A program made the position numbers and the translations under genes. This document shows positions 1,401 through 64,000 of a stretch of 64,000 nucleotides of DNA, one piece after another. How positions within the stretch are numbered: the first letter of the stretch is position 1; every line of letters begins with the position of its first letter. The notes below the pieces were generated by a model, which saw only the letters and a program-made list of their open reading frames with translations, made no database searches and was not told the origin of the DNA. The stretch is from Temnopleurus reevesii (taxonomy: Eukaryota > Echinodermata > Echinoidea > Temnopleuroida > Temnopleuridae): the NCBI GenBank assembly GCA_036244855.1, contig BQKZ01000055.1, forward strand, positions 197,634-261,633, given 5' to 3'.

Positions 1401-1579
1401 GTTCAACTCTGACATAGGAGTCGCAGGAGATGCGTCCAAGAAGATTGGAGGCAACACAGGTGTAGGTTCCTGCATCTTGGAGGAAAGCCTCTTGGATGAT
1501 GAGGCTGCATGTTTCGTCATCTTCACCAAACTCGATGGAATAATGCTGGCCATCAAAGATCTCTTTATGGTCCTTGAAC
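1401..1579 (-). CDS. Exon 78: second half of Ig13 (post-kinase, M-band-like)
   Basis: Encodes FKDHKEIFDG, then an Ig strand D-G half with DAGTYTCVASN (the D-x-G-x-Y-x-C hallmark) and ends SYVRVE. It begins with the G that completes the core Trp codon started in exon 77 (phase 2) and ends phase 1 at a GTAAGT donor. At least one further exon is therefore expected to the left. Confidence 0.9.
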
Positions 1580-31500: not shown

Positions 31501-34500
31501 AAGGATAAATATTAGAATGTCTTTTAAAATATTATTCATAAATCATTCCATTCTGCATTTCACATTGACAGTATTGATTTTTATTCACATTATATCTTAT
31601 TTACATTACTTGTTTGTTATATCATATCACACTTTGTAATAATAATAATATAGATTATTTATACAGCGCTAAAAACAGAGAGTACCATAGCGCTTTATAC
31701 TTTATAATGTGCAAATACAAAGCAAAAATGACAGAGCAAAAGAGAGAGTCGCCTGTTAGGCACGCACCTACTCTCAACTTTGTCCATTCTTGCTAAACAT
31801 GATTCACATTGTATAATGTTTCTTAATTGCTATTTTATTTAGTTACAATCAAATCTATGCATTAGGAATAAATTTAAAAAAAAGGACAATAACATCATCC
31901 ATATTCCATACCTGTGGTCTCCTCAGCCCTAATTGGAGCAGAAGGAGCACTCGCCGGTCCAGGTCCAGCCCTGTTTTCAGCACTGACCCTGAACTCATAC
32001 TCCTCACCCCGCATGAGACGAGTGATGCGGTGCGACGTCACACCGCTGGACACGCCCGTCACTCTGGCCCAATAGGTGCTGGACGTTTCCTTCTTTTCGA
32101 TGATGTAGCCTGAGATCGGTGCACCACCATCTGACTTGGGTGGGTGCCACTCCAGTGTCACAGAGTCTGAGGTGACGTTGGTTACAAGTGGCTTGCTTGG
32201 TGCATCAGGAACATCTATGAAAAAAAAAATCATTTGTAAAGCGTAAGAGGAAAGGACAGAATATGGTGGACTCCTTATTTTTTTGGATTAATTAACCAGT
32301 GGCCCTTTCCAGCCTACTACATGTTGAAAATCCTGAATCCACCCAAGAAAATGTTCATGAGAAAAAGTCATATGAAATCAATGAACTGTTTGTCCTCTGC
32401 TAAAGAAAAGGCTTAAAAAATTATATACCGCAGAATAAATTAATTACACACTAGACATTGAGGAAGTATACACTAAGGTTCTGAAAGGAAAAACATTTAA
32501 TTTCTTTTTACTTCAAACTTTGGAAATTAAATAAAATTAATGAAAATCTCACCATATTTCTTCTTGAGCTTGATCGTCTCTTTAGTTTCAATTGGCTCAC
32601 TGTCGCCGATCTTATTGACAGCAAACACCTTGAAGACATATGAAGCACCTTCCTGCAGACTCGTAACTCTCATGGTGGTATCCAAGGCTTGTGCCGACAG
32701 TCTCGTCCACGTGGAACGATTAGCCTCACGTCTCTCGATGATGTAGTGTGTTATTGGACTACCACCATCATCCGCCGGCTCCTTCCAAGAAAGGAACAGG
32801 TCCGTACTGCCGATGTCCTTGGCAATGAGGGGCCCTCGAGGTGGCTCAGGGCGATCTAGAACTTGGACACGGATTGTGATTGCATCACTTCCAGCAGTGT
32901 TTGATACATTGAGAGTGAACGATCCTGCATCTTCCCGTACGCAGTTCTTGACAGTGACTATAGTGTCCCTGTCGCTGGTGTCGATCTTGACACGAGAGCT
33001 TGATTGAAGTGTGGTGCCGTCCTTAGTCCATTTCACACTGGGCTTTGGTGTAGCTCGGAAGGGTACGTCAAGGTTGAAAGTGGTTCCGACTCTGACAACC
33101 ATCACATCATGATATTTGTAGGTGTCCAGCTTTGGTGCAACTGTAAGGATAAATTTGTACGATAGTATAGAAATAGAATAGTAAATTGAGAGCTGAGTCT
33201 AAAGGAAATGAGAACATATCGTGATCACAAGCAGATTTATACATTCCCTAACACAATATAAATAATTCCAACTGGATAGACCTTGGACTCATTGTATTCT
33301 AAGATTAAACCTAAAGCCCTTAAGAATTGTGGCATTGGCATAATCCATCCAATCCTAAAAATTCTAACAACCTTATGTTTTCATCCTATCAATATTGAGC
33401 AAATTGTTGATTGTGACTGTAATCAAGAAATGCGTCTCTGCCGAACAGGTTACATTAGTTTTCTTTAACAATCTTAACCGATATTCCTTATTTTTCAATA
33501 AATACTATTCCAAAGCAAATTTTCTAATAACCCTAATGATCTTACCAGCCATGCCAACAGAATCTGTAGGACTCGTCGGTTGGCCCATTCCTGCAGCGTT
33601 GACCGCAACCACACGGAACTGACAGGAGCCAGTAGGCGGGAGGTCACGGATCTCCAGCTTGGTGTCCCTGATAGGATGTGGGTTGACAGGGACCCATCGG
33701 GAACTGAACCGGTCGGCGCGCTCCACAATGTAGCCAGTGATTGGGCTTCCGCCATCAGACGATGGGGGTGTCCAATTCAAGGTTAGGGACTTGGCTGTGA
33801 CGTTTGAGATAGATGGCTCTCCTGGTACAGAAGGCACTCCTATGGATCGCAAATCAAAAGATATATTTCATAATATATATCAGTCAGAATGTTACATTAA
33901 TTGTCTGAAACCCTGAAAGTCTGTAAGACACTTTGTATATTATACTTTGTTCATCTAAGTAGTAATTTTCATAATACTGTTTTATATGTAAATAATTGTT
34001 TACGTTTCATCTTCTTGATTTGATTGAAAGGCCTCATGAACAACAAAATTCCATTAATTATAAAGTGAAGAGATTTAATAAAGATTGCTTCTGTGAATGT
34101 GGAAGTATGTAACAAAGCGGAAGTCTAATTTATTTTAAGTTTATATGAGATTTAAGCCATAACATGGAAAACTTGTTCCGCATTTTTCTGTTTGTGCACA
34201 AAACACACACCAAGAGTGACTGATTTACAGAACATGTTTGATCAAATCAAATCAACTTACCAAACTTGGACTTGGCAGTAGCTGGCTCCGAGCCATCACT
34301 TGGTGGTCCAAGACCAGCCTTGTTGAGCGCCATGACCCTGAACTCATACTGCGCACCTTCCTTTAGATCCTTGACCGTTAGCTCCGGATTGAGGATGGAC
34401 TGCGATGTGACGGGTAACCATCGGATGGAGTAAGCCTCCTTCTTCTCCAAAACGTAGCCCATGATGTGGCTACCTCCATCGGATTCTGGAGGGCTCCACT

Positions 34501-43500: not shown

Positions 43501-45616
43501 AAACTTTGATTAACTTAAATGCAAACAAAATACCTCTCTGAGCAGCCCTTTTGCGCTCTGGAACTAAAGTGAAACAGGGAACAGACATTTTCTTAAAGAT
43601 ATAAATTAATTATATCTTTTGAAATAAGCAATATTAAACAATACATCATGGTGCACCATATTGGACAAGAACAATGAAAACCGATCTTAATCATGACTTT
43701 TAGGAGACATGTAGATATGTAGGCATACAGAACTTGAGTTTGATTGTTTACCATTCAGGAAAAAGCCTGCAGTCACTTTGCATTGTGTAAATCATTTACA
43801 TCTTGAGGAAAGTATATGTATTATATAGGCTGCATGATAAAATGTGATAGATCTATAGTTTGGCAAAGGAGAAGATCATGGATTAGGGATGATGAAGAAT
43901 AAATGATCTTCAAATCAAGTCATTCAATATCAAAATAATTGCAAAATGTCTATGGTTTTCTAATTAAACATATAACAATGAGTGCATAGATAAACTTACT
44001 GAAGGGTGACTTAGCAACTGCCGAGTGTGTTGGTTCACTGGGTTTACTTGCTCCAGCCTTGTTCTGTGCCACCACCCTGAACTGGTACTCCTCACCAGGG
44101 ACTAACCCAGGCACAGTGAACTTAGTATCGCTCACTGCGTCATGGTTGACCCGGGTCCAGCGAGGACTGAACTTGTCCTTCTTCTCGATGAAGTAGCCGG
44201 TGATGGGGCTACCGCCGTCGTCCCTGGGGGGAGACCACGTCAGGTTGGCGGAGTCGGCTGTGATGTTGGTGATCTCTGGTTCGGCTGGGGCAGCAGGTTG
44301 ACCTAGAAATGGAGCAGTTAAAGTAAGAAAATGACACTATAGTCGGTGCGAATAATATAGAGTATATAATATGCTTGCATGCATGTAGCATTTCTGGGTT
44401 TTTTCTTTATCATTTTCCTACGTAACATTAAACCATCCCTAGTTGATCATTTTTACATTTGATCTTAATTTATACCATTTCATTTCGCTGAAGAGAGCAT
44501 ATTTCACCTCATATCTTTCAGAGCACCAATTATCAACTGAGTGAATTATACTCATGCGCTGTCATCGTGGGAAGCATACATTTTGTGGAGTATATATCTG
44601 ATTCATACAATTACATTCAAACATATGCAACATTTAAACTCCAATGGTTGCATGCAAACATCAACTTACTGTAAGGTGGCTTAGCGGTGACCTTCTGTGT
44701 TGTATCGCTTGGCTTTCCAAGACCCATCTTATTCTCTGCTGTCACTCTGAACTCATAGCTGTCACCTTCATTAAGGTTCATCACTGTGAACTCTGTGTTG
44801 ATGACCTGTGTGCGGTTCAACTTGTTCCATCGGCCGTATCGGTCCCGCATCTCCACCAGGTAGTTGGTGATCTCAGTGCCCCCGTCTGAGGAGGGTGGTT
44901 TCCAGGTTAGGACTAAGGATGTCCCGGTGATGTCGGAGATCTTGGGCATGCCTGGTGCTGATGGAACATCTGTTAAATGGAACAGAGGTGAAAATAAATG
45001 GAATATGCAGACACAAAAATTTTGCATGAACACAATTTATTACCACTTCTAGAACCTTTTGTCAATGACAACTAATCGAACATTCAGTCATTGATCATTA
45101 TATGCAGCAAATTCAGATACTAGAAAAAGACAAACTAATCAACTATACACATTCCCAAATATGTGGTTGTCTTTTTGGGAAGTTATAATACATTGGCAAA
45201 TAAAAGGTTTAGATTTTTATTCCTTGATTTGAATGTGTAAAATAAACTGATGATCCGGTAAATACCCACTTACCAAATGGACTCTTGGCAATCACTGTTC
45301 CTGACGTATCGCCAAATGGTCCAACTCCAGCCTTGTTCTCAGCTGCAACTCTGAACTCATACTCCCCGCCTTCCGTCAATTCACGAACAACATACTTATC
45401 ATCCCGGATAGTCTCGCGATTAACGCGTGACCAACGGACAGAATACCGGTCCTTCTTCTCAATGACGTATCCGATGATGGGGGTGCCACCGTCGGACCAG
45501 GGTGGGGACCAGGCTAGGGTGATCTGGTTTGCATCAACGTTCATGATGTCTGGTTTGGATGGTGCATCAGGAAGACCTGTGTGCAAAAATGTAGGTGAAG
45601 TATACACATGAGTTAA

Positions 45617-45652
<36 letters not shown>

Positions 45653-57600: not shown

Positions 57601-60600
57601 AAGTTGACCCTTCAAGAATTGCACTGGACACACAACATTCATATTTTTAATAGATCATCAATGTGTTTTAAGTTACTCACTGAATGGGAATTTGGCAGTG
57701 ACTGTAATCGGTTCGCTTGGCTGGCCTGGACCAGCCTTGTTGTGAGCGACGACACGGAACTGATAATCATTCTTCTCCTTCAAGTTTGGCACAGTCATCG
57801 ACAATGTGGTGACCTTGTGCTCTGAGACATCTGTCCAGCGCGTACTGAATTTGTCCTTCATCTCAACAGTATAGCCAACAATGGGACTTCCTCCATTGGA
57901 CAGAGGAGCAGCCCAGGTAAGGGTGACTGATGTAGGCGTTACATCAGTAGCCTTCAGGGCTTTTGGTGGAGAAGGTGCATCTGTTTTTATGGATAAAGAA
58001 GAAAAATGAATTTATTATCAGAGAAAGGAAACTTCATCCCAAAATTTCTTTCCTTTGGAAAGAAATTCATTGGCACTGTGCAGCACTCAACCAAGATAAA
58101 ATTGGGTAACTGGAATGAATCTAATCTTTAGAATTTCTGAACGCCAGTGGCTCGCTCATTGCTATAGCCAGAATAATTATTTTTACATAGTACCAAGTGC
58201 AATAGACTATATTCACAGAGTCTTTTAATATAATATAATATACATGGATTTATATAGCGCAATTACTATACTAAATATATTCAGCTGCGCTAATTACGTC
58301 TTAATGCCAAATTGTACAAAGAAGATATTTAAAGTGGAAAAAGGAAGAAAAGGCCTAAGAAATTAAGTTTTATGCCATTAGGGAATGATGTAAATGGATC
58401 TTATCACTATCATTAGTATTATTATTACTATATGTAATTTAATTATCATCATTAAATGAAGCTTACCGAAAGGTGCCTTTGCAATTATCCTGTCTGATGG
58501 GCTGCTAGGCTCTCCAAGACCAACCTTATTCTCGGCGATGACTCTGAACTCATACTCATTCTTCTCCACAAGATCTGTGATGGACATGGTGAGTTCCTTC
58601 ACAGGGCTTCTATTGACGCGAACCCATCGGTCACGACCCTTCTCCCTCTTCTCCACAACATAACCGGTAACCTTGCTACCACCATCCTCCTTTGGTGGTG
58701 TCCATGTCAAGGTCGCGGAGGTCTTATCGACATCACTCACGTCCGGTGCTCCTGGTGGTCCAGGAGGCTTGAAGGCTACAATGACAGTTCTGCTTGGTGA
58801 TCCGACGCCCGCCTTGTTGACAGCGCTGATGCGGAACTCCACGTCCTCGTCCTCTGGTAGGCCTCGTACGTTGAAGGAGGTGCCATCGATGGTGTCGGTG
58901 GTCACCTGTGTCCATGGCCCACCCTTGACCTTCTTTTCTATGATGTATCCTTGGATCTTGGAGCCACCATCAGATTTAGGCTTGTCCCAGGAGAGTTCTA
59001 CAGATGTCGGTGAAGTGCGCTTAACCTCCGGTTCAGCTGGAGCTTGTGGTTTGTCTAGATAAATAAATATTTGGCAAATAATGTTATACACATCAATAAG
59101 TGGTGAAAAAATCCAGTCTCATTCCTTAGGATTGAATATGAAGGCTGTTTATTCATATGGATAAAACATATATTTCTTGAGGAGACTACAGTTCTCTTTG
59201 TTGTTGATGTGCGTACCACATCTGGAAATTTAAGATTTTTTTCGTATTGGTCAAACGCCCCATGTTAGTGTGTGGACTATCATTTTACTACACAAGAAAA
59301 TAACCAATTATGGAGATTAACTAGGATTTAAATTCCATATTAAGAGTGATTGACAAATACGTACCGAATGCATATTTTGCTGTAACATTAACAGACGGAC
59401 TTGGTTCTCCTGGCCCAGCCTTGTTCTCAGCGATCACTCTAAACTGGTACTCATTGTTCTCCTTCAGGTTGTTCAGCTGGAAGGTCTCTTCTGTGACCGT
59501 GTCCTTGGCCCTGGTCCAGCGGGAGCTGAACCGGTCCTTCATCTCTATTGTGTAGGAGGTAATTGGGCTACCACCATCAGAGTATGGAGGAGACCAGCTA
59601 AGGGTCACAGAGGTTGGGCTGATGTCAGAGGCAATAGGTGCACTCGGTGGTCCAGGAACATCTGTAGGGAATATAAGGGAATATATCTTGAGGTAAGAAT
59701 GTACAAGAATACATCTTAGCATTAATAATATATGGGAATGTATCTTGCAACATGTTACTAACAGGTAACATCTGCATGTGTCTTAGAAGCAACATAGATA
59801 GAATCAAGACATGAAGAGACAATATATGTAGTGCCAAGCTTATAAACATTTTATACTCCTTGTAAATTGAGCTGCGAGCATGGCTGTCACACACAAGCAC
59901 ACCTAAAGAATATAATAAGTGAGTAAATTATCATCATAATGACTGTGCTAGTTGTTTTAGAGCCAGTAGTAATAAAATAGTTATGTAAAAAGCAAGTATT
60001 GTCTAACCCCTTTAGGTTTAGGAGCAATTTTGCAAGACGAATCACTAACAAAAGGAAATGGCATATTATTGCCAATGGTGCTATTGATAAAAGCTATACC
60101 TTTACTGGAGCAACAGAATGAAATGCTCCATTGCCTCCTTTATACAAGCTTTGAAAGATATAATTCAGAGACAGAGAGATATTCATCAGTCAAACTTTTG
60201 AATAAAGGAATTAAAAAGAAATATGCTTACCAAACGGTGGCTTAGCAATGAAAGTGACTGAATCACTTGGTTGTCCTGGACCAGCCTTGTTTTCAGCAGT
60301 GACCCTGAACTCATACTGCTTCTTCTCCATCAGGTCCGAGACCTTCATGGTCACATCCTTGACCGGAGCTCTGTTGACCTTCATCCAGCGGTCAAGTCCT
60401 TTCTCCCGCTTCTCTACGATGTATCCGGTCACCTTACTGCCTCCGTCTGATTCTGGAGGAGTCCATGTCAGCGTCGCCGATGTCTTGTCGATATTGCTCG
60501 CTTCTGGAGCACCTGGTGGACAGGGTGGCTTGGCCGTCAGAGTTGCAGTAGCACTTGGCTTGCTGGAACCAGCCTTGTTCACCGCGCTCACTCTAAATTC

Positions 60601-63600
60601 AACATCTTCTCCTTCTCGCAGATTCTTAATCGTGAAGGAGGTGTTGTCAATGGTGTCTTCGATGACGGGGGTCCACTTTGTGGCGAGACGGTCCTTCTTC
60701 TCAAGGATGTATCCAGTGATCTCTGCACCACCATCACTATCTGGTGGGGACCACTTGATCTTGGCTGATGTTTCTGAGATCCGGGAGACGTCATCGATGA
60801 ATGGAGAATCTGGTACATCTATCAGTGCAAAATTTTACATCAATAATAATGTTAGTATTATATGATTTGATGATCAGTTTAAGATTCCAGAGTACTTAAT
60901 ATTTCAAAATGTAAGTTTTCATGGAATATAATCAACAAAAAAAATAAATGTTCGAATGGACAAATTCCTTGAAGAAAGCATGAATTTGAATGGGCAGACC
61001 GATATCATCAGATGAATTATATTTTCCATCATATATGCAAAAGATATGAATACAATAAATATTTAAATATATTAACTGGCATGCCAGAAAAAAGTAACTT
61101 CAGTTTGTAGTACCATGTTGGAATTATATTTTTATTTGATTTGAATTGATTAAATTCTTAATTGCAAAATACATTACAGGATAACCCTTGAAAACCTAAT
61201 TTCTACATACAAACCTCCATAATTATAGATAGATGTGCAATAGAATTCAAGTTACAATCAAGAAATATTTGCTTCAATATCAACACATAACATATGAAAA
61301 GAAAACACCATAAGACAACAGAGATCAGCAAATTTGTAATTACCACTAACATGCAACAGTCATTAAAAGATCAGATCCAGGCAAATTCGGTTAGAATTTG
61401 ATTGAGCAAGACAAACAAATCAAGATGATTTAAACCATCATTGTGATCATACGCATCAATATTTTCTTCTTAACAAATGCAAACAAAATATGAAATGACA
61501 AAATAATCTAATCCAGTGACATTAAAGTGCACAAGCTATTATTATCTGAAAAATAGGTCCAAACTAAGAAAGATAGAATGGTAATTAGTTTTTAGAGAAA
61601 ATGCATTACTGGAACCTCCTTCTAAAGTGAGATGGATAAAGAAGGGAAAAATACTGAAATAATCAATAACAGTGTAGTGACGAAAGTAATTTTTGGATAA
61701 GTTATAGACAATACTGATCTAATTTGGGTTGAACATAATACTCAAGGGCAATCAATAACTTACAGATTAAAATGATTGGAGAGGGTAAATGAATCCATTA
61801 AGGTTTACTCTTTAGTATACACCACCACCAATACAACGAAGATCCACATTGACAAATTCTTACCAAAGGGGTACTTTGTCATTGCCATGGTTTCCAGACT
61901 AGCTTTCCCCTGTCCTGCTTTGTTCACTGCTATGACCCGGAAGTAATACTTTTCATTCTTAGTCAACCGAGTGACCTTGAAATCAGTGTCTTTGATAGCA
62001 ACTTTGTTGATCTGTGACCATTGAGGGCGGTATTCTTCTTTCATCTCGATGAAGTATCCCGTCACTCTGCTCCCGCCATCCGATTTGGGTGCATGCCATT
62101 CTAAACTCACACTATCCGGTGTGGTTTTTGTAATGTTGGGGACATGAGGGGCCCCAGGGACATCTATGGTGTTCATGAAATGCGGTTATGAAATGGATGT
62201 TTCATTAGAAGGCCATGCAAAATTGAAAGAAAGCAAGATATAATATGACAAAATGCAAAATGCAAATGTAAGTGGTTGTTACAAATGACATTTTAAACTA
62301 ATTCATTATATGCACCTATTGGGGACCGTAGAACTGTGAGGGGTGAGCTAGTCCCCCTTAACTTTTTTAATAAATGTGTGCAAAAATATGGCGTGTGTAA
62401 TAATACACAGATCCTCCACCTCTTAAGGTGTTACGCAATTATCACACATTTTCCAGTGTTAACTATACTAAATAGGTAATTTTCTAAAGAAGTAAATTTT
62501 CTAAATATTCTACCCATAATTTTTCTAAATTTTCTACCTATATTAATTTTTCTCAGTTATTAAGAAATACTATTTTTGAAAGGATTAAATCTCTTCATAT
62601 GGATTAAAAATTTAATATGAACAATGACAAGTTACTTCAGGAATGAACATAATCTTTGGAATAAAGCAAATGCTATTCAATCAAACAGAGTAATCAGGTC
62701 AAGACTTCCTCATGAAATGTATCATCAAATAATAGCATCAATCTCAATAGAGCAGTTAACAGCAAAGCAGCATTTGTTTGTATTATGAGACAGTTGAAAA
62801 AAATATGCATTAGATGCATTATTCAGGCATTATACTGTGTGCTTTTTCTTATCATTAGCTTTGCATAAAACCCATGCAACAAAATAGCATTCATCATTCA
62901 AGATTTAAGTGCATAATTATTGATTGAAGAAAATCCTAGTAATTGTAATTTGAAGAGTACCAAGCTGAATCTTTGGTCGATATGAAATAATTCTGAAACA
63001 TTCAGAATTTGGTTGCTAAATAAATTCTCTTTTCAATACAATTGCCTAAACTTGTGGTAATTGTTAGGAATTATTTCCAGGCATTTCTGAGTAAATAATA
63101 TATGAAAGATTCAACCCATATTCAAAAGTTTTTAGATGATAAATGTATGAATACCATCATCTTCATCACTTGAATTAAATTGATATAAGAATTGCAGCAA
63201 ACACCATGCAGATTCCACTTACCAAATGGATGCTTCGCGATGACAACAGTTTCCGCACTGGGTTTGCTGTTCCCTGCCTTGTTCACAGCCATGACCCTGA
63301 ACGTGTACTCCGTGCCATCCTTGAGCGTTGTCAGGGTACAGGTCAGTTCCGTCATGGTGTCCTTATTAACCTGAGTCCACCTGGTGGCAAACCTGTCCTT
63401 CATCTCTAGGATGTACCCAGTGATGGGGCTGCCACCATCCCGGTTGGGTGGGGTCCAGGTCAGGGTGGCTGTGGTAGGTGAGACGTTGGATGCTTCTGGA
63501 GCATCGGGAGTGGCTGGAACATCTAGGGGAGAAAAAATGGAAAATGATGTAAATTTAAAGTCTTGAATTTATTAGAGCTCTTTACTATATCGTTTATTAA

Positions 63601-64000
63601 TGCATCACATAAGTAGCTTCACAATCGAACATATTCTCCTACCAATATTGTTTGTTCAAGAATGAGACTATTACTTAATATTCTATAATGTCAAGGATTA
63701 AAGCGCAAGAAGATGACCTTAAACATGTCTAACAACTTTAAAAGATTTGCTGAATACATCAGATGATTCTATCAACAATTTCTAATGTGGAATAAACGTT
63801 TGCCACAATCTATAATAATATTGGCATTTATATAGTACTCTTACAGAAATATAAATGACAAAATTAGAACTTTTTCTCACCAAATGGAGCCTTGGCTACA
63901 AACTTGATGGAAGGGTTGCTTGGTTCAGATGGTCCGACCTTGTTCTCCGCAATAACCCTGAACTCATAGTCATTCTTCTCTACCAGATCAGTGATATTCA
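1401..64000 (-). CDS. TTN-like: Titin/twitchin-family giant sarcomeric protein kinase (partial at both ends, 78 exons)
   Basis: Spliced from 78 exons; about 6,797 codons lie in the window. Protein order: 38 FN3; four times Ig-FN3-FN3; Ig-Ig-FN3x3; Ig-Ig-FN3x2; Ig-Ig-FN3; linker; Ser/Thr kinase; basic tail; three Ig. All introns assigned are GT-AG, and each domain block (single exon or split pair) is a multiple of three bases, which supports the model. The kinase tail (GGALR element) and the basic linker after the first post-kinase Ig resemble vertebrate titin, while the Ig-FN3-FN3 repeats resemble twitchin/projectin. By family knowledge it is a thick-filament ruler and scaffold with an M-line kinase. 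The 5' end lies beyond 64000. The 3' end probably lies to the left of position 1, because the exon at 1401 ends in a strong donor. Introns not listed separately (mostly 300-700 bases) showed nothing beyond AT-rich sequence. Confidence 0.93.
2091..2226 (-). CDS. Exon 77: first half of Ig13
   Basis: Starts phase 1. Encodes a short linker with FTDYHRP, then the Ig A-C strands with EGSAARLDCKVTG and VPEPNIRW. The Cys of strand B and the split core Trp pair with the Cys in exon 78, giving a complete I-set Ig. The 136 + 179 bases make 105 codons. Confidence 0.9.
2706..2918 (-). CDS. Exon 76: main part of Ig12
   Basis: Encodes VPEPKVKWYHND (strand C with the core Trp), a GPHYHFYEEDG hairpin and DKGVYSAEISNQYG (strands E-F), ending in LDVN. 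Strand F has Ser-Ala in place of the usual Cys, so this Ig lacks the classical disulphide, as many muscle Ig domains do. It joins exon 75 in phase 1 and exon 77 in phase 1. Confidence 0.9.
3682..3821 (-). CDS. Exon 75: charged linker and first strands of Ig12
   Basis: Encodes a basic, Ala-rich segment (ERARKLRAAQAAAPG), then PQLIRPLEDQ and FDFIMPLSFQ, read as Ig strands A, A' and B. With exon 74 it forms the spacer between Ig11 and Ig12. Vertebrate titin has a similarly basic spacer after its first post-kinase Ig, which supports a titin-type M-band. Confidence 0.85.
4216..4279 (-). CDS. Exon 74: small charged linker exon between Ig11 and Ig12
   Basis: 64 bases, starting phase 1 and ending phase 2. 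Encodes LDAEELDKRGERRGMDMKRKK, very rich in acidic and basic residues. It has no Ig or FN3 features. The acceptor (tatacag) and GTAAGT donor are good, and only this placement keeps exons 73 and 75 in frame. Confidence 0.85.
4693..4983 (-). CDS. Exon 73: Ig11, first Ig after the kinase
   Basis: A complete I-set Ig in 97 codons: PKFIKPLEST, GRFDCEVSA (strand B Cys), ITWFKGKKEI (core Trp) and DIAEYTCKAVNSYG (strand F Cys). Symmetrical phase 1-1 exon. It corresponds in position to the first M-band Ig of titin and to the Ig directly after the kinase tail of twitchin. Confidence 0.93.
5533..5644 (-). CDS. Exon 72: kinase regulatory tail, second part
   Basis: Encodes GAGKTLNAIGHLAHGGALRE, then MHKMYRGKPLMERECYM. 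The LN..A..GGA.R pattern resembles the C-terminal regulatory segment of titin kinase (LNMVVSAARISCGGAIR), which lies in the active site and blocks it in known structures. Starts phase 0, ends phase 1 into Ig11. Confidence 0.88.
5645..6215. other. Intron with a possible retroelement tail
   Basis: AT-rich. Near 6085-6120 the sequence aaataaagaaatattttaat resembles the 3' terminus of CR1/L2-type elements. No body of an element could be recognised. Nothing else seen. Confidence 0.3.
6216..6302 (-). CDS. Exon 71: basic kinase tail segment
   Basis: 29 codons, phase 0-0: METDEMARRRARRLDNSRLR then KYHDKNKPK. It directly follows the HPWLQ end of the catalytic domain and is strongly basic, as expected for the autoinhibitory helix (and possible calmodulin-binding region) of titin/twitchin kinases. 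In-frame skipping would remove only this segment. Confidence 0.88.
6898..6943 (-). CDS. Exon 70: end of kinase C-lobe
   Basis: 46 bases encoding RMTIQEALDHPWLQ, the conserved last helix of Ser/Thr kinases (HPWL). It starts with the last base of a split Glu codon and ends phase 0. The GTAAGA donor and TTTCAGACA acceptor both fit. Confidence 0.9.
7390..7542 (-). CDS. Exon 69: kinase C-lobe middle
   Basis: Encodes LSGISPFEGETDRDTLKNV, then GEWDFDEEAFADIS and LDWIELILIKNKE. LSG.SPF and the W.FDE.AF segment are signatures of the titin/twitchin/MLCK branch of kinases. Starts phase 2, ends phase 2. Confidence 0.92.
8009..8208 (-). CDS. Exon 68: kinase catalytic and activation segments
   Basis: Encodes PENVMLCSR, KIIDFGLTMELDP (intact DFG), FGTPDFIAPEV (APE motif), then PTDMWALGVMAYLM. 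The Asp of DFG is present, unlike human titin kinase, which has Glu there. The residue two positions before the Ala of APE is Phe, where titin carries its inhibitory Tyr region. This predicts metal binding and no Tyr block, though activity is inference. Confidence 0.93.
8209..8891. other. Intron with ATT/ATC microsatellite
   Basis: Positions about 8715-8860 hold gcgctttataagtac followed by degenerate att/atc triplets. This is the tail type common in marine invertebrate short retroelements. Nothing else seen. Confidence 0.45.
8892..9033 (-). CDS. Exon 67: kinase hinge to catalytic loop
   Basis: Encodes LSGGELFDRL, VIFYMKQICEGVKHMHER and HMVHLDLK. HLD-L-K is the catalytic loop (HRD in most kinases), with the catalytic Asp and Lys present. 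SGGELFDR is typical of twitchin and MLCK; human titin has SGLDIFER. Ends phase 0. Confidence 0.93.
9236..9331. repeat. Direct duplication, copy 1
   Basis: Begins atatcagtctaaaatatcac and ends gtttatcaaaca immediately before the N at 9332. No difference from copy 2 was seen over 96 bases. Confidence 0.8.
9498..9593. repeat. Direct duplication, copy 2
   Basis: Matches bases 9236-9331 throughout, then continues into ordinary intron (tttaatactc). The perfect match points to a very recent event or an assembly artefact. Confidence 0.8.
9750..9950 (-). CDS. Exon 66: kinase N-lobe
   Basis: Encodes the glycine loop (GRGSYGVVYRA across the junction), the ATP-anchoring Lys in WAAKFM, the helix C Glu in VRREIEVM, and KLHHRRLLNLHEVFE. 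All N-lobe catalytic residues are intact. KTWAAKFM....LVRREI is closer to titin (KTYMAKFV....LVKKEI) than to twitchin. Starts and ends phase 2. Confidence 0.93.
10394..10544 (-). CDS. Exon 65: pre-kinase linker and first kinase strand
   Basis: Encodes SKPGRPQFEDYEGKRRFYD, FDRGPHPFVNRTGS, then IYDYYQILEELG, where the kinase fold begins. By comparison with twitchin (DHYDIHEELG) this is the N-terminal linker that unfolds or detaches under stretch. Starts phase 1 from F52, ends phase 2. Confidence 0.9.
10924..11211 (-). CDS. Exon 64: F52, FN3 directly before the kinase
   Basis: 96 codons, phase 1-1. Contains IRLSWNPPIYDGGSNITSY and YQFRVTAFNMYG, ending AVVCTK. With Ig9 and Ig10 it forms the Ig-Ig-FN3-kinase block equivalent to A168-A169-A170 of titin, where muscle RING ligases dock in vertebrates. 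Ligase binding here is inference. Confidence 0.92.
11259..11421. mobile_element. Small inverted-repeat element (MITE-like), 163 bp
   Basis: The left end gggcagtgtttcaccaag and the right end cttggtgaagcaccgccc are imperfect inverted repeats, 16 of 18 bases paired. The interior has ttcttaaagt twice. No coding capacity. A related piece (ggttgttcttaaagtaaaca) occurs near 35260, suggesting a dispersed family. Confidence 0.55.
11802..12089 (-). CDS. Exon 63: Ig10
   Basis: 96 codons, phase 1-1. Key pieces: PKLALPARLR, IMLKVPFSG, PNIKWDRDGV (core Trp), DAGKYSIVASNELG. Strand F has Ser instead of Cys. Position equals titin A169. Confidence 0.92.
12400..12684 (-). CDS. Exon 62: Ig9
   Basis: 95 codons, phase 1-1. 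Contains PPQFVSPPHN, VTVTCHVSGYPAP, VRWYRLGREI and GEISVTATNKGG. The strand F motif is D-V-G-E-I rather than D-x-G-x-Y, an atypical tyrosine corner. Position equals titin A168. Confidence 0.92.
13008..13310 (-). CDS. Exon 61: F51 (FN3)
   Basis: 101 codons, phase 1-1. Starts at the linker DPPSAPGRPEI; VHVSWKAPSTDGGSPITGY and YEFRVMAENSMG are intact FN3 signatures. Second of the FN3 pair between Ig8 and Ig9. Confidence 0.93.
13634..13933 (-). CDS. Exon 60: F50 (FN3)
   Basis: 100 codons, phase 1-1. ATFTWTPPLDDGGAPIQRY and HYVLRVTAENQYG; ends LVKSPF. The GY after the DGG loop is replaced by RY, a small departure from the family pattern. Confidence 0.93.
14108..14240 (-). pseudogene. Decayed duplicate of exon 59 (older copy)
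   Basis: Plus-strand sequence from ccctagctcaatgacctttg to about 14240 aligns by eye with exon 59 from cctagtacattgacccttgc onward, including tattcatttaatgcagctag against tattcattcactgcttctaa. Many substitutions and small gaps; no usable acceptor or frame. Read as a relic of tandem exon duplication. Confidence 0.6.
14252..14383 (-). pseudogene. Decayed duplicate of exon 59 (younger copy, internal deletion)
   Basis: Flank plus coding part match exon 59: aatatatgacccatctgaga against aatatatgacctctctgaga, and the donor GTAAGG is kept at 14290-14291. On the minus strand the frame is still open (VAGRVGELCMND, KEDFGLYSLE against VVGGVAELYVKD, REDSGIYSLE), but about 36 bases are missing and the acceptor AG is lost. 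Probably not spliced. Confidence 0.7.
14432..14562 (-). CDS. Exon 59: second half of Ig8
   Basis: Encodes VNVVGGVAELYVKD, EDSGIYSLEAVNEYG and TARVNVL. Joins exon 58 in phase 2 across an intron of about 3 kb. The two halves sum to 97 codons. Two decayed copies of this exon follow downstream at 14252-14383 and 14108-14240. Confidence 0.9.
14563..17550. other. 3-kb intron inside Ig8
   Basis: The largest intron in the window. Mostly AT-rich without genes. It holds the actin-like pseudogene fragment at 16535-16720 and a short (AT)n run near 16497-16512. Nothing else recognised. Confidence 0.6.
16535..16720 (-). pseudogene. Probable actin retropseudogene fragment
   Basis: A GC-richer block. On the minus strand one frame reads KRGGEFMTLKYPIMKGID, close to the actin segment KRGILTLKYPIEHGIV. 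About 100 bases on, agaaaaatgaggcacagaca resembles the actin REKMTQ coding region. The stretch between is shortened and frameshifted, and stops are present. No introns or flanking actin exons are seen, so a decayed processed copy is the best reading. Identification rests on short matches recalled from actin and is tentative. Confidence 0.5.
17551..17710 (-). CDS. Exon 58: first half of Ig8
   Basis: Encodes PPQLSIDRHLQDLSVRAGQE, IPVTLTCGTPKP and FTWRRQDGEV, ending in a split Arg codon (phase 2). The PxLTCGTPKP.F.W order is a typical muscle Ig strand B-C region. Confidence 0.9.
18142..18314 (-). CDS. Exon 57: second half of Ig7
   Basis: Encodes IHHGRTLVPGRK, QISVRNVTDHEAGMYTFIA then KNKHGSVKSS and ends LHIQ. 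Tyrosine-corner sequence EAGMY is intact; strand F lacks Cys. Joins exon 56 in phase 2 through the core Trp codon. Confidence 0.9.
18440..18600 (-). mobile_element. Possible tRNA-derived SINE fragment
   Basis: On the minus strand, cgcctctcgggttgagagtc followed by agagtttgaatctc resembles an anticodon arm and T arm with a B-box-like core at 18494-18504. The D-arm side is poor. A short tRNA-derived SINE head is more likely than a functional tRNA. Confidence 0.35.
18843..18954 (-). CDS. Exon 56: first half of Ig7
   Basis: Encodes GAAPSIVMEIQNTMVAEGQ, then TGMFTCKLTGSPKPTASW. The strand B Cys is present and the core Trp is the last, split codon (phase 2). 112 + 173 bases make 95 codons. Confidence 0.9.
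18955..20233. other. Intron, AT-rich
   Basis: Contains a dispersed 12-base motif cccactgctgac at 19111 and, near 20145-20210, aataatttcaacatttatat followed by ggcactttatactcatg, a degenerate member of the 'tttatatagcgc' repeat type. No exon recognised. Confidence 0.4.
20234..20533 (-). CDS. Exon 55: F49 (FN3)
   Basis: 100 codons, phase 1-1. VSLSWSPPLTDGGSEITHY, YTFRVRAVNAAGNESD. Third of the only FN3 triplet flanked on both sides by Ig pairs. Confidence 0.93.
21658..21687 (+). repeat. G-rich tract (possible quadruplex)
   Basis: A run of four Gs, then ten Gs, then five Gs within about 30 bases (ggggtcaagggggggggg agtggggg). Could fold as a G-quadruplex on the plus strand, which is the template strand of the gene. 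Length may be a sequencing-prone homopolymer. Confidence 0.5.
21805..21882. mobile_element. Short terminal-inverted-repeat element, 78 bp
   Basis: The left arm taacccattgactactg and the right arm cagtagtcaaggggtta are inverted repeats matching at 16 of 17 bases. The loop is about 44 bases. No coding capacity; MITE-like or a stable hairpin. Confidence 0.5.
21905..22207 (-). CDS. Exon 54: F48 (FN3)
   Basis: 101 codons, phase 1-1. MTLTWSEPSHDGGKPITGY, YEFRISAVNDTGTGNPSE; ends ARSPA. Middle domain of the FN3 triplet F47-F49. Confidence 0.93.
22639..22941 (-). CDS. Exon 53: F47 (FN3)
   Basis: 101 codons, phase 1-1, starting at the linker DVPGPPTGP. VSLSWEPPKDDGGSPIQSY and YEFRVCAENINGVGPP. First FN3 after the Ig5-Ig6 pair. 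Confidence 0.93.
23430..23714 (-). CDS. Exon 52: Ig6
   Basis: 95 codons, phase 1-1. PPTIDIKAYKDVVV, LRLLVPFTGCPAPKVEWHR, NCVRGDTGKYSITLTNEAG. The RGD triplet lies in the tyrosine-corner loop and is not read as an integrin site. Confidence 0.93.
24107..24370 (-). CDS. Exon 51: Ig5
   Basis: 88 codons, the shortest Ig in the window, phase 1-1. LAEFVEPLKN, VTLECRISNPKAEVKWFKDG and DTGNYTCECGKQATTAW. Both core Cys and the Trp are present, and the F-G hairpin is short. The donor is GTGTGT, weaker than its neighbours. Confidence 0.92.
24781..25083 (-). CDS. Exon 50: F46 (FN3)
   Basis: 101 codons, phase 1-1. ITLSWQPPKSDGGSEIFNY, YEFRVAAENEAGVGAFS; ends VSKSPI. Last domain of the fourth Ig-FN3-FN3 repeat. 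Confidence 0.93.
25479..25600 (-). CDS. Exon 49: second part of F45 (FN3)
   Basis: Encodes YAVTGLKDGRSYMFRVKAVSKYGESEPLE and ends IKSAF. Joined in phase 2 to exon 48. The split sits just before the V-T-G-L turn, the same place as in other split FN3 domains of this gene. Confidence 0.88.
26134..26314 (-). CDS. Exon 48: first part of F45 (FN3)
   Basis: Encodes DKPSPPEGPIKV, VTLFWEPPKDDGGSDITGY, ILERREPDQFRWTRV and ends at a split Arg codon. 181 + 122 bases make 101 codons. Confidence 0.9.
26784..26937 (-). CDS. Exon 47: second half of Ig4
   Basis: Encodes VDDGRRIKASTTTYSAVL, SDSGTYTIKISNKAG, ending RVAVL. Joined in phase 0 to exon 46. The acceptor (caatgcaag) has a poor pyrimidine tract directly before it, although a very long pyrimidine tract lies farther upstream in the intron. 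Confidence 0.86.
27222..27407 (+). repeat. Long polypurine tract (polypyrimidine on the sense strand of the gene)
   Basis: About 185 bases, almost all A and G on the plus strand, from ggaaaagagtgcagg to gaaggaaaaaagagg. It lies in the intron inside Ig4, starting within 10 bases of the exon 46 donor. Such tracts can form triplex DNA, and the transcript would be a pyrimidine-rich binding site for splicing factors. Functional effect is inference. Confidence 0.8.
27414..27547 (-). CDS. Exon 46: first half of Ig4
   Basis: Encodes APKIDLGSQFRD, GTLFHLDVPISGTPTP and KVEWLRDDKK, ending phase 0 on AAG before GTATTG. 134 + 154 bases make 96 codons. First domain of the fourth Ig-FN3-FN3 repeat. Confidence 0.9.
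28043..28351 (-). CDS. Exon 45: F44 (FN3)
   Basis: 103 codons, slightly longer than its sisters because of an extra loop (EKGQPESGWSR). VSLTWSKPQRDGGTPVTGY and YEFRVSAVNRAG. Phase 1-1; donor CCT|GTAAGT. Confidence 0.92.
28708..28820 (-). CDS. Exon 44: second part of F43 (FN3)
   Basis: Encodes ITKLIEDREYQFRVRAENKFG and ends IPKGDY. Joined in phase 2 to exon 43, at the same structural position as the F45 split. Confidence 0.88.
29074..29548 (-). CDS. Exon 43: Ig3 fused to first part of F43
   Basis: 475 bases. Ig3: KPKFNLDSRFEK, FRIDIPYKATPTPTVSWTR, DSGDYVIKASNRAG. It runs without an intron through VVDCPSAPQGPL into FN3 sequence VTLSWSPPHDDGGSTVTGY, ending at DTTF plus a split Arg codon. The Ig-FN3 junction intron is absent here, as in exons 39 and 41. 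Confidence 0.92.
30028..30330 (-). CDS. Exon 42: F42 (FN3)
   Basis: 101 codons, phase 1-1. VTVVWTPPSNDGGAPVTGY, YEFRVCAVNRAGTGRPSEP; ends LVEDPP. Third domain of the second Ig-FN3-FN3 repeat. Confidence 0.93.
30904..31488 (-). CDS. Exon 41: Ig2 fused to F41 (FN3)
   Basis: 195 codons, phase 1-1. Ig2: PKFSGRFDEP, FRIEVPYTGIPTPAVSWML, HAGRYTINLKNTAG. Linker VFDRPGPPRGPL without intron. FN3: VTLSWSPPTDDGGSRIFTY, YQFRVLAQNQYG. The fused Ig-FN3 exon suggests that repeats 1-3 of this block arose by duplication. Confidence 0.93.
31912..32214 (-). CDS. Exon 40: F40 (FN3)
   Basis: 101 codons, phase 1-1. VTLEWHPPKSDGGAPISGY, YEFRVSAENRAGPGPASAP; ends RAEETT. Completes the first Ig-FN3-FN3 repeat. Confidence 0.93.
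32553..33140 (-). CDS. Exon 39: Ig1 fused to F39 (FN3)
   Basis: 196 codons, phase 1-1. Ig1: APKLDTYKYHDV, FNLDVPFRATPKPSVKWTK, DAGSFTLNVSNTAG. Linker VLDRPEPPRGPL. FN3: LFLSWKEPADDGGSPITHY, YVFKVFAVNKIG. This is the first Ig after 38 FN3 domains, so it marks the boundary between the two rod zones. Confidence 0.93.
33546..33839 (-). CDS. Exon 38: F38, last domain of the FN3 array
   Basis: 98 codons, phase 1-1. LTLNWTPPSSDGGSPITGY, CQFRVVAVNAAGMGQP; ends SVGMA instead of the usual K-x-P-Y/F. The shorter form and unusual ending mark the edge of the array. Confidence 0.93.
34261..34563 (-). CDS. Exon 37: F37 (FN3)
   Basis: 101 codons, phase 1-1. VSLQWSPPESDGGSHIMGY, VLEKKEAYSIRWLPV, YEFRVMALNKAGLGPPS; ends AKSKF. 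Confidence 0.93.
34787..35089 (-). CDS. Exon 36: F36 (FN3)
   Basis: 101 codons, phase 1-1. VALKWRPPSNDGGSPVTGY, YEFRVVAANKKGFGQPSEP; ends VKPPY. The usual ENKAG turn reads ANKKG. Confidence 0.93.
35431..35727 (-). CDS. Exon 35: F35 (FN3, short form)
   Basis: 99 codons, phase 1-1. ATITWAAPSRDGGSAITGY, RWTPIERVTDTTCKI, YQFRVLATNKAG. Two residues shorter than neighbours in the strand C' to E loop. Confidence 0.93.
36163..36465 (-). CDS. Exon 34: F34 (FN3)
   Basis: 101 codons, phase 1-1. ATLEWTPPFSDGGSPVTGY, IVERKDQYSSRWTRV, YQFRVSAENRAGIGRAS; ends IIKDPV. Confidence 0.93.
36535..36555. repeat. (GA)n microsatellite
   Basis: About ten ag/ga units in the intron just upstream of exon 34. Confidence 0.85.
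36920..37222 (-). CDS. Exon 33: F33 (FN3)
   Basis: 101 codons, phase 1-1. LVLNWTPPMSDGGSPITNY, IIEARDKFGLRWSKI, YQFRVIAENKAGPGRPS; ends AKPPY. Confidence 0.93.
37698..38000 (-). CDS. Exon 32: F32 (FN3)
   Basis: 101 codons, phase 1-1. MTLSWEPPSSDGGSTITGY, IVEKRESPVGRWVRA, YEFRVSAENAAGVGKAS; ends AKSPY. Acceptor ATTAG is followed by GVPGAP rather than the common DVPGAP. Confidence 0.93.
38388..38690 (-). CDS. Exon 31: F31 (FN3)
   Basis: 101 codons, phase 1-1, with the proline-rich start DPPPPPDAPDV. ATLSWSAPRQDGGSPITGY, YEFRVSSVNAAGVGKPS; ends AKAQY. Confidence 0.93.
39153..39452 (-). CDS. Exon 30: F30 (FN3)
   Basis: 100 codons, phase 1-1. ITISWRPPSYDGGSKITGY, TIESKSNATMRWVKI, YQFRVAAINKAGRGDFS; ends CKPPY. 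Confidence 0.93.
39857..40159 (-). CDS. Exon 29: F29 (FN3)
   Basis: 101 codons, phase 1-1. MTLNWSAPRTDGGSPITGY, VIEKREPGRTGWTVV, YEFRVIAENKAGLGRPS; ends AKPPF. Confidence 0.93.
40609..40911 (-). CDS. Exon 28: F28 (FN3)
   Basis: 101 codons, phase 1-1. MTLRWAPPESDGGTSITAY, IVERREQFSTRWVQI, YEFRVAAKNKIGIGKFS; ends AKEPY. Confidence 0.93.
41439..41553 (-). CDS. Exon 27: second part of F27 (FN3)
   Basis: 115 bases: VTGLTEGTEYEFRVVAENVAG and ends AKSPY. Joined in phase 0 to exon 26. The donor is followed within ten bases by a T-run and then a run of ten Gs on the sense strand. Confidence 0.88.
41554..42159. other. Intron with an N and a GC-richer dispersed-repeat-like block
   Basis: Around 41660-41910 the sequence is richer in GC than its intron and contains the perfect hairpin tcgaccg-cgca-cggtcga at 41668-41685 and gcctccgccatcacgc. 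A single N stands at 41920. Probably part of an interspersed repeat that interrupted assembly. Confidence 0.45.
42160..42347 (-). CDS. Exon 26: first part of F27 (FN3)
   Basis: 188 bases: DEPGPPGTPEAS, LTLTWTPPFSDGGSRVIGY, YVEKKDRMSLRWSPV, ending DTRLK in phase 0. The donor is GTCTGA, weak. The split 188 + 115 is the same as in F22. Confidence 0.85.
42348..43533. other. Intron, AT-rich, with a weak two-copy tandem repeat
   Basis: tttgcagctgttttgcaatgt (about 42971) and tttgcagccagcttgcaacat (about 43058) start two diverged copies roughly 90 bases long. No exon other than the microexon that follows. Confidence 0.35.
43534..43563 (-). CDS. Exon 25: 30-base microexon encoding a basic linker
   Basis: The minus strand reads ttccctgtttcactttag, then 30 bases, then GTATTT. 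The acceptor has an excellent pyrimidine tract. Frame from exon 24 (phase 1) gives a linker PERKRAAQR between F26 and F27, and it returns to phase 1, so inclusion or skipping both keep the frame. It sits in the middle of a 1.65-kb intron and has no domain of its own. A regulated cassette exon is likely but unproven. Confidence 0.7.
44000..44302 (-). CDS. Exon 24: F26 (FN3)
   Basis: 101 codons, phase 1-1. ANLTWSPPRDDGGSPITGY, FIEKKDKFSPRWTRV, YQFRVVAQNKAGASKPS; ends AKSPF. Confidence 0.93.
44670..44969 (-). CDS. Exon 23: F25 (FN3)
   Basis: 100 codons, phase 1-1. LVLTWKPPSSDGGTEITNY, LVEMRDRYGRWNKLN, YEFRVTAENKMGLGKPS; ends AKPPY. Confidence 0.93.
45274..45576 (-). CDS. Exon 22: F24 (FN3)
   Basis: 101 codons, phase 1-1. 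ITLAWSPPWSDGGTPIIGY, VIEKKDRYSVRWSRV, YEFRVAAENKAGVGPFG; ends AKSPF. Confidence 0.93.
45619..45648. repeat. (AT)n microsatellite
   Basis: About 14 at units in the intron just upstream of exon 22. Confidence 0.9.
45975..46277 (-). CDS. Exon 21: F23 (FN3)
   Basis: 101 codons, phase 1-1. MTVTWTPSLSDGGSPITGY, TLEKCDVSTGRWVPV, YCFRVVAHNVAGESKPS; ends AKPPY. The usual Trp-x-Pro-Pro has Pro-Ser here, and the EFR turn carries a Cys. Confidence 0.93.
46695..46809 (-). CDS. Exon 20: second part of F22 (FN3)
   Basis: 115 bases: VTGLKENHNYEFRVTAVNKAG, ends TTKATY. Joined in phase 0 to exon 19 over a 2.2-kb intron. Confidence 0.88.
46810..49013. other. 2.2-kb intron with a degenerate tandem repeat
   Basis: Between about 47490 and 48080 the phrase tctacttaagatgtgaaa or a close variant (tctactgtagatatgaaa, tctgctttagatgtgaaa) recurs four times at irregular 130-250-base spacing, each followed by AT-rich sequence with cattatt/tatcaat pieces. 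Looks like an old tandem expansion. No exon seen. Confidence 0.45.
49014..49201 (-). CDS. Exon 19: first part of F22 (FN3)
   Basis: 188 bases: VPDAPSQPTAVEV, ITVRWSAPKSDGGSRITNY, ILEMKEQFSSFWKRV, ending LTYQ in phase 0. Split position and part lengths are identical to F27. Confidence 0.9.
49274..49509 (+). mobile_element. tRNA-derived SINE
   Basis: The head tagatctggctcttgcttgt, then ggttgcaggttcaaatccca, has a textbook B box (ggttcaaatcc, 49317-49327) and a tRNA-like arm layout. About 150 bases of body follow, and it ends in a catcattattattat tail near 49509. Opposite strand to the gene, within the intron between F21 and F22. Confidence 0.65.
49693..49989 (-). CDS. Exon 18: F21 (FN3, short form)
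   Basis: 99 codons, phase 1-1. VKLSWEPPRLDGGSRIIDY, VVEKKDAFSIRWTEV, VQFRVTAVNRAGPGKPS; ends LKPEF. Short form, at a multiple-of-three position in the array. Confidence 0.93.
50340..50639 (-). CDS. Exon 17: F20 (FN3)
   Basis: 100 codons, phase 1-1. ATLTWKAPSDGGSPITNY (one residue shorter before DGG), IIEKREGAGGRWTTC, YSFRVTAVNKAGASKPS; ends AQPPY. Confidence 0.93.
51014..51316 (-). CDS. Exon 16: F19 (FN3)
   Basis: 101 codons, phase 1-1. VTLTWSPPASDGGSQITGY, IVEKKEDYMTRWVSV, YTFHVIAINKAGQSKPS; ends AKKPY. Confidence 0.93.
51744..52040 (-). CDS. Exon 15: F18 (FN3, short form)
   Basis: 99 codons, phase 1-1. AELLWNPPMDDGGSPISNY, VVEMKDKFGVRWTSL, YEFQVRAENKAGVGEPS; ends AKDAY. Belongs to the EMK-type third position of the FN3 triplets. 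Confidence 0.93.
52611..53071 (-). CDS. Exon 14: end of F16 fused to F17 (FN3-FN3)
   Basis: 461 bases. Begins FSPRWSPVNQT and CEFRVVAKNKAG (rest of F16), runs through FSIKPPEAPSRP without an intron, then VTLTWSPPESDGGSPVTNY and YEFRVIAENKAG of F17; ends AKPPY. Part of the fused-pair series. Confidence 0.92.
53616..53745 (-). CDS. Exon 13: first part of F16 (FN3)
   Basis: 130 bases: DVPSQPHSLKIS, VTLEWEEPDSDGGANVSGY and IIEKKD plus a split Arg codon (phase 2). The split is earlier in the fold than in the other divided FN3 domains, so this intron is of separate origin. Confidence 0.9.
53880..53955 (+). repeat. Short retroelement 3' tail
   Basis: gcgctttgaatctcacgaaa, then ggcgctttataaatgcaaat followed by (att)n. 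The same tail type is seen near 8715-8860 and, inverted, near 31640-31720 and 58230-58310. Confidence 0.5.
54235..54531 (-). CDS. Exon 12: F15 (FN3, short form)
   Basis: 99 codons, phase 1-1. MVLTWQPPYSDGGSPVTDY, IIEKKEPYSSKWVPV, YEFRVAAVNKAGPSEFS; ends AKLPY. Confidence 0.93.
54532..55079. other. Intron, AT-rich
   Basis: Nothing recognised on either strand beyond homopolymer A/T runs. Confidence 0.4.
55080..55670 (-). CDS. Exon 11: F13-F14 fused pair (FN3-FN3)
   Basis: 197 codons, phase 1-1. F13: LTVKWTAPESDGGSPILGY, CEFHVIAVNKAG. Linker FRVPGPPGTPEI. F14: VDLRWTPPTDQGGTRITGY (Gln replaces Asp of DGG), FKFRVLAENRAG; ends IKLPY. Confidence 0.93.
56029..56143 (-). CDS. Exon 10: second part of F12 (FN3)
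   Basis: 115 bases: VIRLTEGKEYTFRVIAENKAG, ends AKLPF. Joined in phase 0 to exon 9; same length as exons 20 and 27. Confidence 0.88.
56361..56542 (-). CDS. Exon 9: first part of F12 (FN3, short form)
   Basis: 182 bases: DVPDKPDQPDVT, MTVKWTPPSSDGGSKITGY, ILEMKELYSSRWSQV, ending DLSFK in phase 0. Six bases shorter than exons 19 and 26, which makes F12 a 99-codon short form. Confidence 0.9.
56806..57390 (-). CDS. Exon 8: F10-F11 fused pair (FN3-FN3)
   Basis: 195 codons, phase 1-1. F10: VKLSWSPPSNDGGDKVTGY, TIDDTSFTIKGLKEGEE. Linker AASPPGPPGSP. F11: VTLSWTAPESDGGSKIIGY, VTDLVEKNEYEFRVLAENKIG; ends VKLPF. Confidence 0.93.
57681..57980 (-). CDS. Exon 7: F9 (FN3)
   Basis: 100 codons, phase 1-1. 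VTLTWAAPLSNGGSPIVGY (Asn for Asp in the DGG loop), TVEMKDKFSTRWTDV, YQFRVVAHNKAGPGQPS; ends AKFPF. EMK-type third position. Confidence 0.93.
58467..59054 (-). CDS. Exon 6: F7-F8 fused pair (FN3-FN3)
   Basis: 196 codons, phase 1-1. F7: VELSWDKPKSDGGSKIQGY, TIDGTSFNVRGLPEDED. Linker AFKPPGPPGAP. F8: ATLTWTPPKEDGGSKVTGY, ITDLVEKNEYEFRVIAENKVG; ends AKAPF. Close paralogue of exons 4 and 8. Confidence 0.93.
59365..59661 (-). CDS. Exon 5: F6 (FN3, short form)
   Basis: 99 codons, phase 1-1. VTLSWSPPYSDGGSPITSY, TIEMKDRFSSRWTRA, YQFRVIAENKAGPGEPS; ends AKYAF. EMK-type third position. Confidence 0.93.
60231..60818 (-). CDS. Exon 4: F4-F5 fused pair (FN3-FN3)
   Basis: 196 codons, phase 1-1. F4: AKIKWSPPDSDGGAEITGY, TIDNTSFTIKNLREGED. 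Linker AKPPCPPGAPEA. F5: ATLTWTPPESDGGSKVTGY, VSDLMEKKQYEFRVTAENKAG; ends AKPPF. Confidence 0.93.
60819..61863. other. 1-kb intron, AT-rich
   Basis: No exon, repeat family or hairpin recognised. Confidence 0.4.
61864..62163 (-). CDS. Exon 3: F3 (FN3)
   Basis: 100 codons, phase 1-1. VSLEWHAPKSDGGSRVTGY, FIEMKEEYRPQWSQI, YYFRVIAVNKAGQGKAS; ends TKYPF. EMK-type; with F2 it makes two such domains in a row, a break in the triplet period. Confidence 0.93.
62164..63222. other. 1-kb intron, AT-rich
   Basis: A slightly GC-richer piece at about 62310-62450 (ggggaccgtagaactgtgag, then taatacacagatcctccacc) may be an old repeat but matches nothing I can name. The remainder is unremarkable. Confidence 0.35.
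63223..63522 (-). CDS. Exon 2: F2 (FN3)
   Basis: 100 codons, phase 1-1. ATLTWTPPNRDGGSPITGY, ILEMKDRFATRWTQV, YTFRVMAVNKAGNSKPS; ends AKHPF. EMK-type third position. Confidence 0.93.
63881..64000 (-). CDS. Exon 1 of the window: C-terminal part of F1 (FN3), cut by the right edge
   Basis: Encodes NITDLVEKNDYEFRVIAENK, then VGPSEPSN and ends AKAPF. The LVEKN type equals the second domain of the fused pairs (F5, F8, F11), so the exon probably continues as another fused FN3 pair beyond 64000. Confidence 0.9.

Follow-up and report, generated by a model that had tools for sequence, protein, structure and literature searches.

A putative thick-filament rod: at least 61 FN3 domains in a row without Ig in a titin-type gene of the echinoid Temnopleurus reevesii

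A titin-type gene of the echinoderm Temnopleurus reevesii carries a row of at least 61 fibronectin type III (FN3) domains with no immunoglobulin (Ig) domain among them, and we favor, with moderate confidence, the reading that this row forms a thick-filament rod at the position of the vertebrate A/I junction and D-zone. The case for titin as blueprint of the thick filament has been built on its super-repeats, in which Ig domains are the markers. More than 60 FN3 domains without Ig, in register between echinoderms and an acorn worm, are a natural experiment on what the titin ruler needs. The window analyzed here is a 64,000-nucleotide stretch (positions 197634-261633 of contig C55) from an assembly of 558 Mb in 10433 contigs, and a multi-exon gene lies on its minus strand. 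Together with a second contig, C92, the gene appears to run in the order PEVK-like/Ig part, Ig-free FN3 row, four Ig-FN3-FN3 units, an Ig/FN3 part, kinase and terminal Ig domains.

The initial annotation had described at least 38 FN3 domains, and no Ig, between 33546 and the right edge of the window. By Pfam and HMM, 37 FN3 domains are complete in this part of the row (33546..64000) and another is truncated by the edge, on 37 exons; the count was sound, as an underestimate of the whole row, and every domain exon found from the right edge to 33546 was indeed FN3. On the spliced row (first domain at 63520, last exon ending at 33546), Pfam marked 37 fn3 stretches, and on the row plus Ig1 a single I-set stretch, namely the Ig that terminates the row. 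Some further Ig-named Pfam families scored on the whole protein, with no stretch in the row passing alone. Full row domains had E values of 1e-28 to 1e-44 with an HMM trained on the row itself; given these values and the independent agreement of Pfam, the FN3 calls are not due to chance. The exon model for the 38 domains consists of 35 listed exons, all 35 with GT-AG ends, a half exon (53745-53616) and an edge exon (63881..64000) that encodes the C-terminal part of an FN3 domain completed beyond the window. Single- and double-domain exons are of phase 1-1, and an internal intron splits four of the domains. The splicing of the gene is a model; in this predicted frame, 6598 residues run from 63520 to the last modeled Ig without a stop.

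An Ig HMM built from eight Ig domains of the same gene and run on 2754 six-frame fragments of at least 15 aa found no overlooked Ig exon in the row: its 8 weak matches there (0.2-9.9 bits) all lay within FN3 exons, and the same HMM recovered split Ig half-exons left of the row at ∼20-44 bits. When Pfam was run on one read-through frame per row half, an I-set match of 22.2 bits, which is below the cut-off, likewise fell within an FN3 exon. The row ends at Ig1, as annotated, on the 38th exon of our model and not on exon 39 (Ig1 shares the exon at 32553..33140 with the next FN3). Four Ig-FN3-FN3 units follow (24781..33140), then the order Ig-Ig-FN3-FN3-FN3-Ig-Ig-FN3-FN3-Ig-Ig-FN3 (10924..24370) and a twitchin/titin-type kinase on six exons (6898..10544), all on the minus strand. 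Row, Ig-FN3-FN3 units and kinase are in a single open frame. This agrees with the earlier assignment to a titin/twitchin-type protein, and the array most probably does not belong to a gene separate from the kinase part, which had been raised as a possibility.

The suggestion that the row continues past 64000 was borne out when the contig was extended rightward and domain models were run: the row reaches the contig end. C55 extends 12221 bases past the window, where the edge-cut domain is completed and 17 more complete FN3 domains follow, with a partial one at the very end, so that C55 holds 55 complete and 1 partial FN3 in total. The row start was found at the end of C92 (plus strand), where 13 Ig matches over 30 kb are followed by four complete and one partial FN3, and an 841-aa open reading frame with 56% P/E/V/K (PEVK-like) lies upstream. 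With 59 complete and 2 partial FN3 domains, the row counts at least 61, to which any domains within the C92-C55 assembly gap would be added. The two contig ends have one exon that is 91% identical over 210 bases, but the introns around it are unrelated, and an overlap of the contigs was rejected for this reason. The domains of C92 and C55 match successive domains of the starfish Patiria and of the acorn worm Saccoglossus, and we infer with confidence that the two contigs are one gene; through this link the gene would also have the titin trait of tandem Ig and PEVK sequence upstream of an FN3-rich part, which is present on C92. In-frame TGA codons were observed in 2 of the 55 complete C55 row domains (window-continued coordinates 68903 and 64460, minus strand). 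Both are at the same place, directly before the conserved Trp, where other row domains mostly have Arg or Lys; they may be due to a sequencing error, an allele, a skipped exon or recoding, and they were counted against our best explanation.

The 'titin-like' models of Patiria miniata and Saccoglossus kowalevskii contain the same row in register, both ends included, split there over two and three gene models, respectively. Patiria has 25 FN3 after Ig domains (P0246) and 40 before an Ig (P0217), these two models being placed on contigs of equal length, and Saccoglossus has 19 FN3 after Ig domains, 31, and 18 before Ig-FN3-FN3 units (P0280, P0219 and P0252); the totals of 65 and 68 assume that the gene models adjoin. 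A sea cucumber fragment (P0003) has 8 FN3 directly preceding an Ig. These proteins came from searches in which the best 120 of 2173, 96 of 96 and the best 120 of 380 matches were taken (291 distinct proteins); as relatives were picked by similarity to this gene, and none exceeds about 8000 residues, the set is not a census. In the 171 listed proteins of more than 2400 residues the longest FN3 run was at most 4 in 145, 5-14 in 13 and at least 18 in 13, and the 13 long-run proteins among the matches listed comprise seven from molluscs, five from Patiria or Saccoglossus, and P0200, which is without Ig. A domain scan found no Ig within the long runs of Patiria and Saccoglossus; Ig matches within rows in one scan were artefacts of a one-sequence database.

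Domain order was aligned on a double-centred similarity matrix, with 200 shuffles as control. The row scored 91.0 against Patiria (shuffles: mean 21.2, sd 2.9, maximum 31.2; 57 pairs), 45.5 against Saccoglossus (mean 23.2, sd 3.2, maximum 31.6; 58 pairs) and 39.5 against Diadema (mean 11.0, sd 2.3, maximum 19.9), in which 9 of 9 domains were aligned at a mean identity of 0.75. Reversed order gave 17.5 with Patiria and 16.8 with Saccoglossus, and these two scored 63.5 with each other. Identity was 75% to Diadema over the nine domains, compared with 55% on the Patiria path, as is likely for a sea urchin. In Patiria and Saccoglossus the match takes in both termini of the row, from the FN3 that follows the last Ig to the one that precedes the next Ig. 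Scores against four molluscs, the annelid Owenia, amphioxus, C. elegans twitchin and Ciona were within the shuffled range. Since the order alignment is far above the shuffles and both ends match, the row is, as judged from these sequences, homologous domain for domain within Ambulacraria, and the Ig-free row is by the same measure an old ambulacrarian feature. The array that the initial annotation proposed to look for in related species was found, but the 'new architecture' is not unique to this gene: Patiria and Saccoglossus share the row, and seven mollusc proteins have rows of 32-49 FN3. No description of such a row was found in the literature searched, which did not cover most subscription journals. 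In Patiria P0246 (residues 504-2052), Ig pairs recur every 457 residues with long stretches between them, possibly a large spring repeat.

The FN3 domains were classified by their place behind an Ig, with one model each for the first, second and third FN3, built from 154, 154 and 52 training domains of ten other proteins; 357 of 360 calls were right, as checked on these training domains only. In the row, 60 of 61 domains were second-class, and the sole first-class call was the first domain after the last Ig. The second-class share was 65/65 in Patiria and 67/68 in Saccoglossus. Outside the row, 12 of 14 FN3 of the same gene fit their position, and the misfits, the FN3 before the kinase and the third FN3 of a triplet, were called second-class. 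Loss of Ig from Ig-FN3-FN3 units would leave the post-Ig class at every second or third place, and this origin was rejected. With 60 of 61 domains in one class, the row appears to have grown through duplication of a single FN3 class, and not through Ig loss.

Identity among the row domains peaked at lag 3 (z 6.8), lag 10 (5.1) and lag 7 (3.7). In segments of 14 domains, lag 3 reached z 2.9-3.5 in the middle of the row and −0.3, 0.2 and 1.2 at the ends. Between 71.2 and 52.6 kb the row divides into units of three or four FN3; this register takes in only about half of the row, which counts against our best explanation. Nine junctions (eight scored by script and one by eye) have 14 residues, about five fewer than the other junctions measured (17-19). 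All nine short linkers are within single exons, at spacings of 4,3,3,4,3,3,3,3; under random placement, spacings of 3 and 4 alone have a probability of 5.8e-5, for a pattern that was noticed before the test. In the window, two-FN3 exons with a short linker lie at 60231..60818 (an a-b pair), 58467..59054, 56806..57390 and 55080..55670, and the last pair of the register (52611..53745) is on two exons (53745-53616 and 53071-52611), all on the minus strand. In Patiria P0217, three short linkers are spaced by three domains and another lies further along; Diadema has two, three apart, as does Saccoglossus P0219 (14 and 15 residues). Nearly all short lags were raised in Patiria, lag 3 being the highest (z 9.0), and in Saccoglossus lag 12 (5.2) exceeded lag 3 (3.8). 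The a/b/c subtype strings of the row did not transfer cleanly to other species. The predicted structure of a short-linked pair (pLDDT 89, pTM 0.69, four sequences) had good domains, but its domain angle matched none of the solved pairs compared (best 3lpw, TM 0.50, rmsd 8.2), and this geometry was also counted against our best explanation.

In sequence, the a-b-c unit comes closest to A-band tandems and to titin in the thick-filament structures 8g4l and 8q6t, and the nearest solved structures of the row are vertebrate titin A-band domains. For vertebrate titin, PMC7427331 gives a measured 3.98 nm per domain and describes a run of six FN3 at the A/I junction, the filament end; it also proposes that each 14.5 nm myosin level takes groups of two or three FN3. 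PMC10665226 describes zero-length linkers that make stiff pairs in the C-zone. At 3.98 nm per domain, the row could form a rod of ∼243 nm (61 domains) to 271 nm (68 domains) on the thick filament, where vertebrate titin has the A/I junction and D-zone. The role proposed for Ig-FN3-FN3 and Ig-FN3-FN3-FN3 at each myosin level would fall to groups of three or four FN3, and the short linkers could, by analogy with the vertebrate C-zone, make stiff pairs. We infer the thick-filament position from sequence. It counts against the rod reading that 4+3+3, or ten domains at 3.98 nm, gives 40 nm and not 43.

The row stands directly behind PEVK-like and tandem-Ig sequence, which would also suit a place in the elastic I-band, with the FN3 chain straightening or unfolding under load and only the Ig-FN3-FN3 part bound to the thick filament. 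We hold this to be rather unlikely, as the row domains are in sequence most like those of the titin A-band seen in thick-filament structures, and the partial register of three or four domains and the short linkers are of the kind that PMC10665226 describes for the vertebrate C-zone.

Among the matches listed, seven mollusc titin-like proteins have FN3 runs of 32-49 (P0218, P0220, P0232, P0225, P0259, P0162 and P0173), and in those with the C-terminus present the row leads into Ig-Ig-FN3 and a kinase. Three mollusc pairs had order scores of 100-175 with each other, whereas Patiria or Saccoglossus against Batillaria did not score above the shuffles. A lag-3 peak (z 7.5-10.7) was seen in the four mollusc rows tested (P0218, P0162, P0232 and P0220), and it is repeated at lags 6, 9 and 12 in three of them; these four rows are of mixed FN3 classes. 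The mollusc proteins thus have long FN3 runs and the lag-3 signal in common with the echinoid row, but, in the four tested, neither collinearity nor a single FN3 class. The lack of collinearity and the mixed classes suggest that the mollusc rows are probably of separate origin, either independent of the ambulacrarian row or with a homology beyond detection. Descent of both from one FN3 row of the bilaterian ancestor is distinctly unlikely. Both rows lie behind Ig domains in titin-type proteins and both have lag-3 similarity; however, collinearity is present within each group and not above shuffles between them, so that a single origin is unsupported by the order alignment, and the FN3 classes are mixed in molluscs and not in ambulacrarians. 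A common row of great age could also have lost its collinearity. As an apparent second origin, the mollusc rows permit a comparison. Returning to the thick-filament reading, we suggest only tentatively that in Ambulacraria, and separately in molluscs, an Ig-free titin rod may template the thick filament with FN3 alone, a short-linked pair replacing the Ig as the mark of units of three or four FN3, which would keep the register with myosin. If such a rod is real, the titin ruler would not require Ig domains.

That the row belongs to a separate gene, or arose through misassembly (tandem copies, a chimeric contig), is highly implausible: although the assembly breaks within the row at the recently duplicated exon described above, the row lies with the kinase part on one contig and in one open frame, a mean identity of 0.46 between row domains means that they are not assembly copies, and proteins of other species have the same domain order.

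As in chordate titins, PEVK-like and tandem-Ig sequence is followed by an FN3-rich part and then by a kinase; the FN3 domains are nearest to those of vertebrate titin in sequence, and the short linkers resemble those of the C-zone pairs in PMC10665226. In the chordate A-bands scanned, however, Ig alternates with two or three FN3, whereas here at least 61 FN3 follow one another without Ig; the titin-like protein of Styela (P0283) has an FN3 run of 8. The super-repeats Ig-FN3-FN3 and Ig-FN3-FN3-FN3 are absent from the row, and four Ig-FN3-FN3 units come after it. The initial annotation had given runs of two or three for the A-band of vertebrate titin: the alternation with Ig holds, but not the maximum, given the six-FN3 run at the A/I junction in PMC7427331. 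With twitchin/projectin (C. elegans unc-22, Drosophila bent), the gene shares the end order FN3-FN3-FN3-Ig-Ig-FN3-FN3-Ig-Ig-FN3-kinase, but not the long Ig-FN3-FN3 core; C. elegans twitchin has such a core, with a longest FN3 run of 3, where here four units stand behind the FN3 row. PMC12198301 leaves open whether the joined I-band and A-band gene is a chordate fusion or older; a PEVK/Ig part, FN3 row and kinase that are apparently one gene outside the chordates bear on this question. Elsewhere in the assembly, contig C7520 (10001-20000) carries an FN3-FN3-Ig-FN3-FN3-Ig-FN3-FN3 fragment of a second gene, perhaps a separate twitchin, and contig C1872 (∼27-70 kb, minus strand) carries dozens of weaker FN3 matches in a row, apparently another FN3-rich gene.

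The best solved matches of the kinase were twitchins (334, 306 and 306 bits), followed by MYLK4 (287) and titin (272). In a kinase tree of 27 rows, the window kinase fell into no supported set, with a top identity of 58% to a twitchin; the tree favors neither titin nor twitchin, and this was counted against our best explanation. One donor in the kinase model was set too early, with the loss of a few residues, but the open frame contains HLDLK. Because AAKF, HLDLKPEN and DFG are all in this frame, the kinase looks like an active one of the twitchin type, by the motifs discussed in PMC12862963. The titin/twitchin trait of Ig-Ig-FN3-kinase followed by Ig is present. The post-kinase Ig domains lie at 1401..4983 (minus strand), and the last exon of the gene was not located; three were found (window 1-4983 and a further stretch), where a scan of this kind finds five in twitchin of C. 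elegans.
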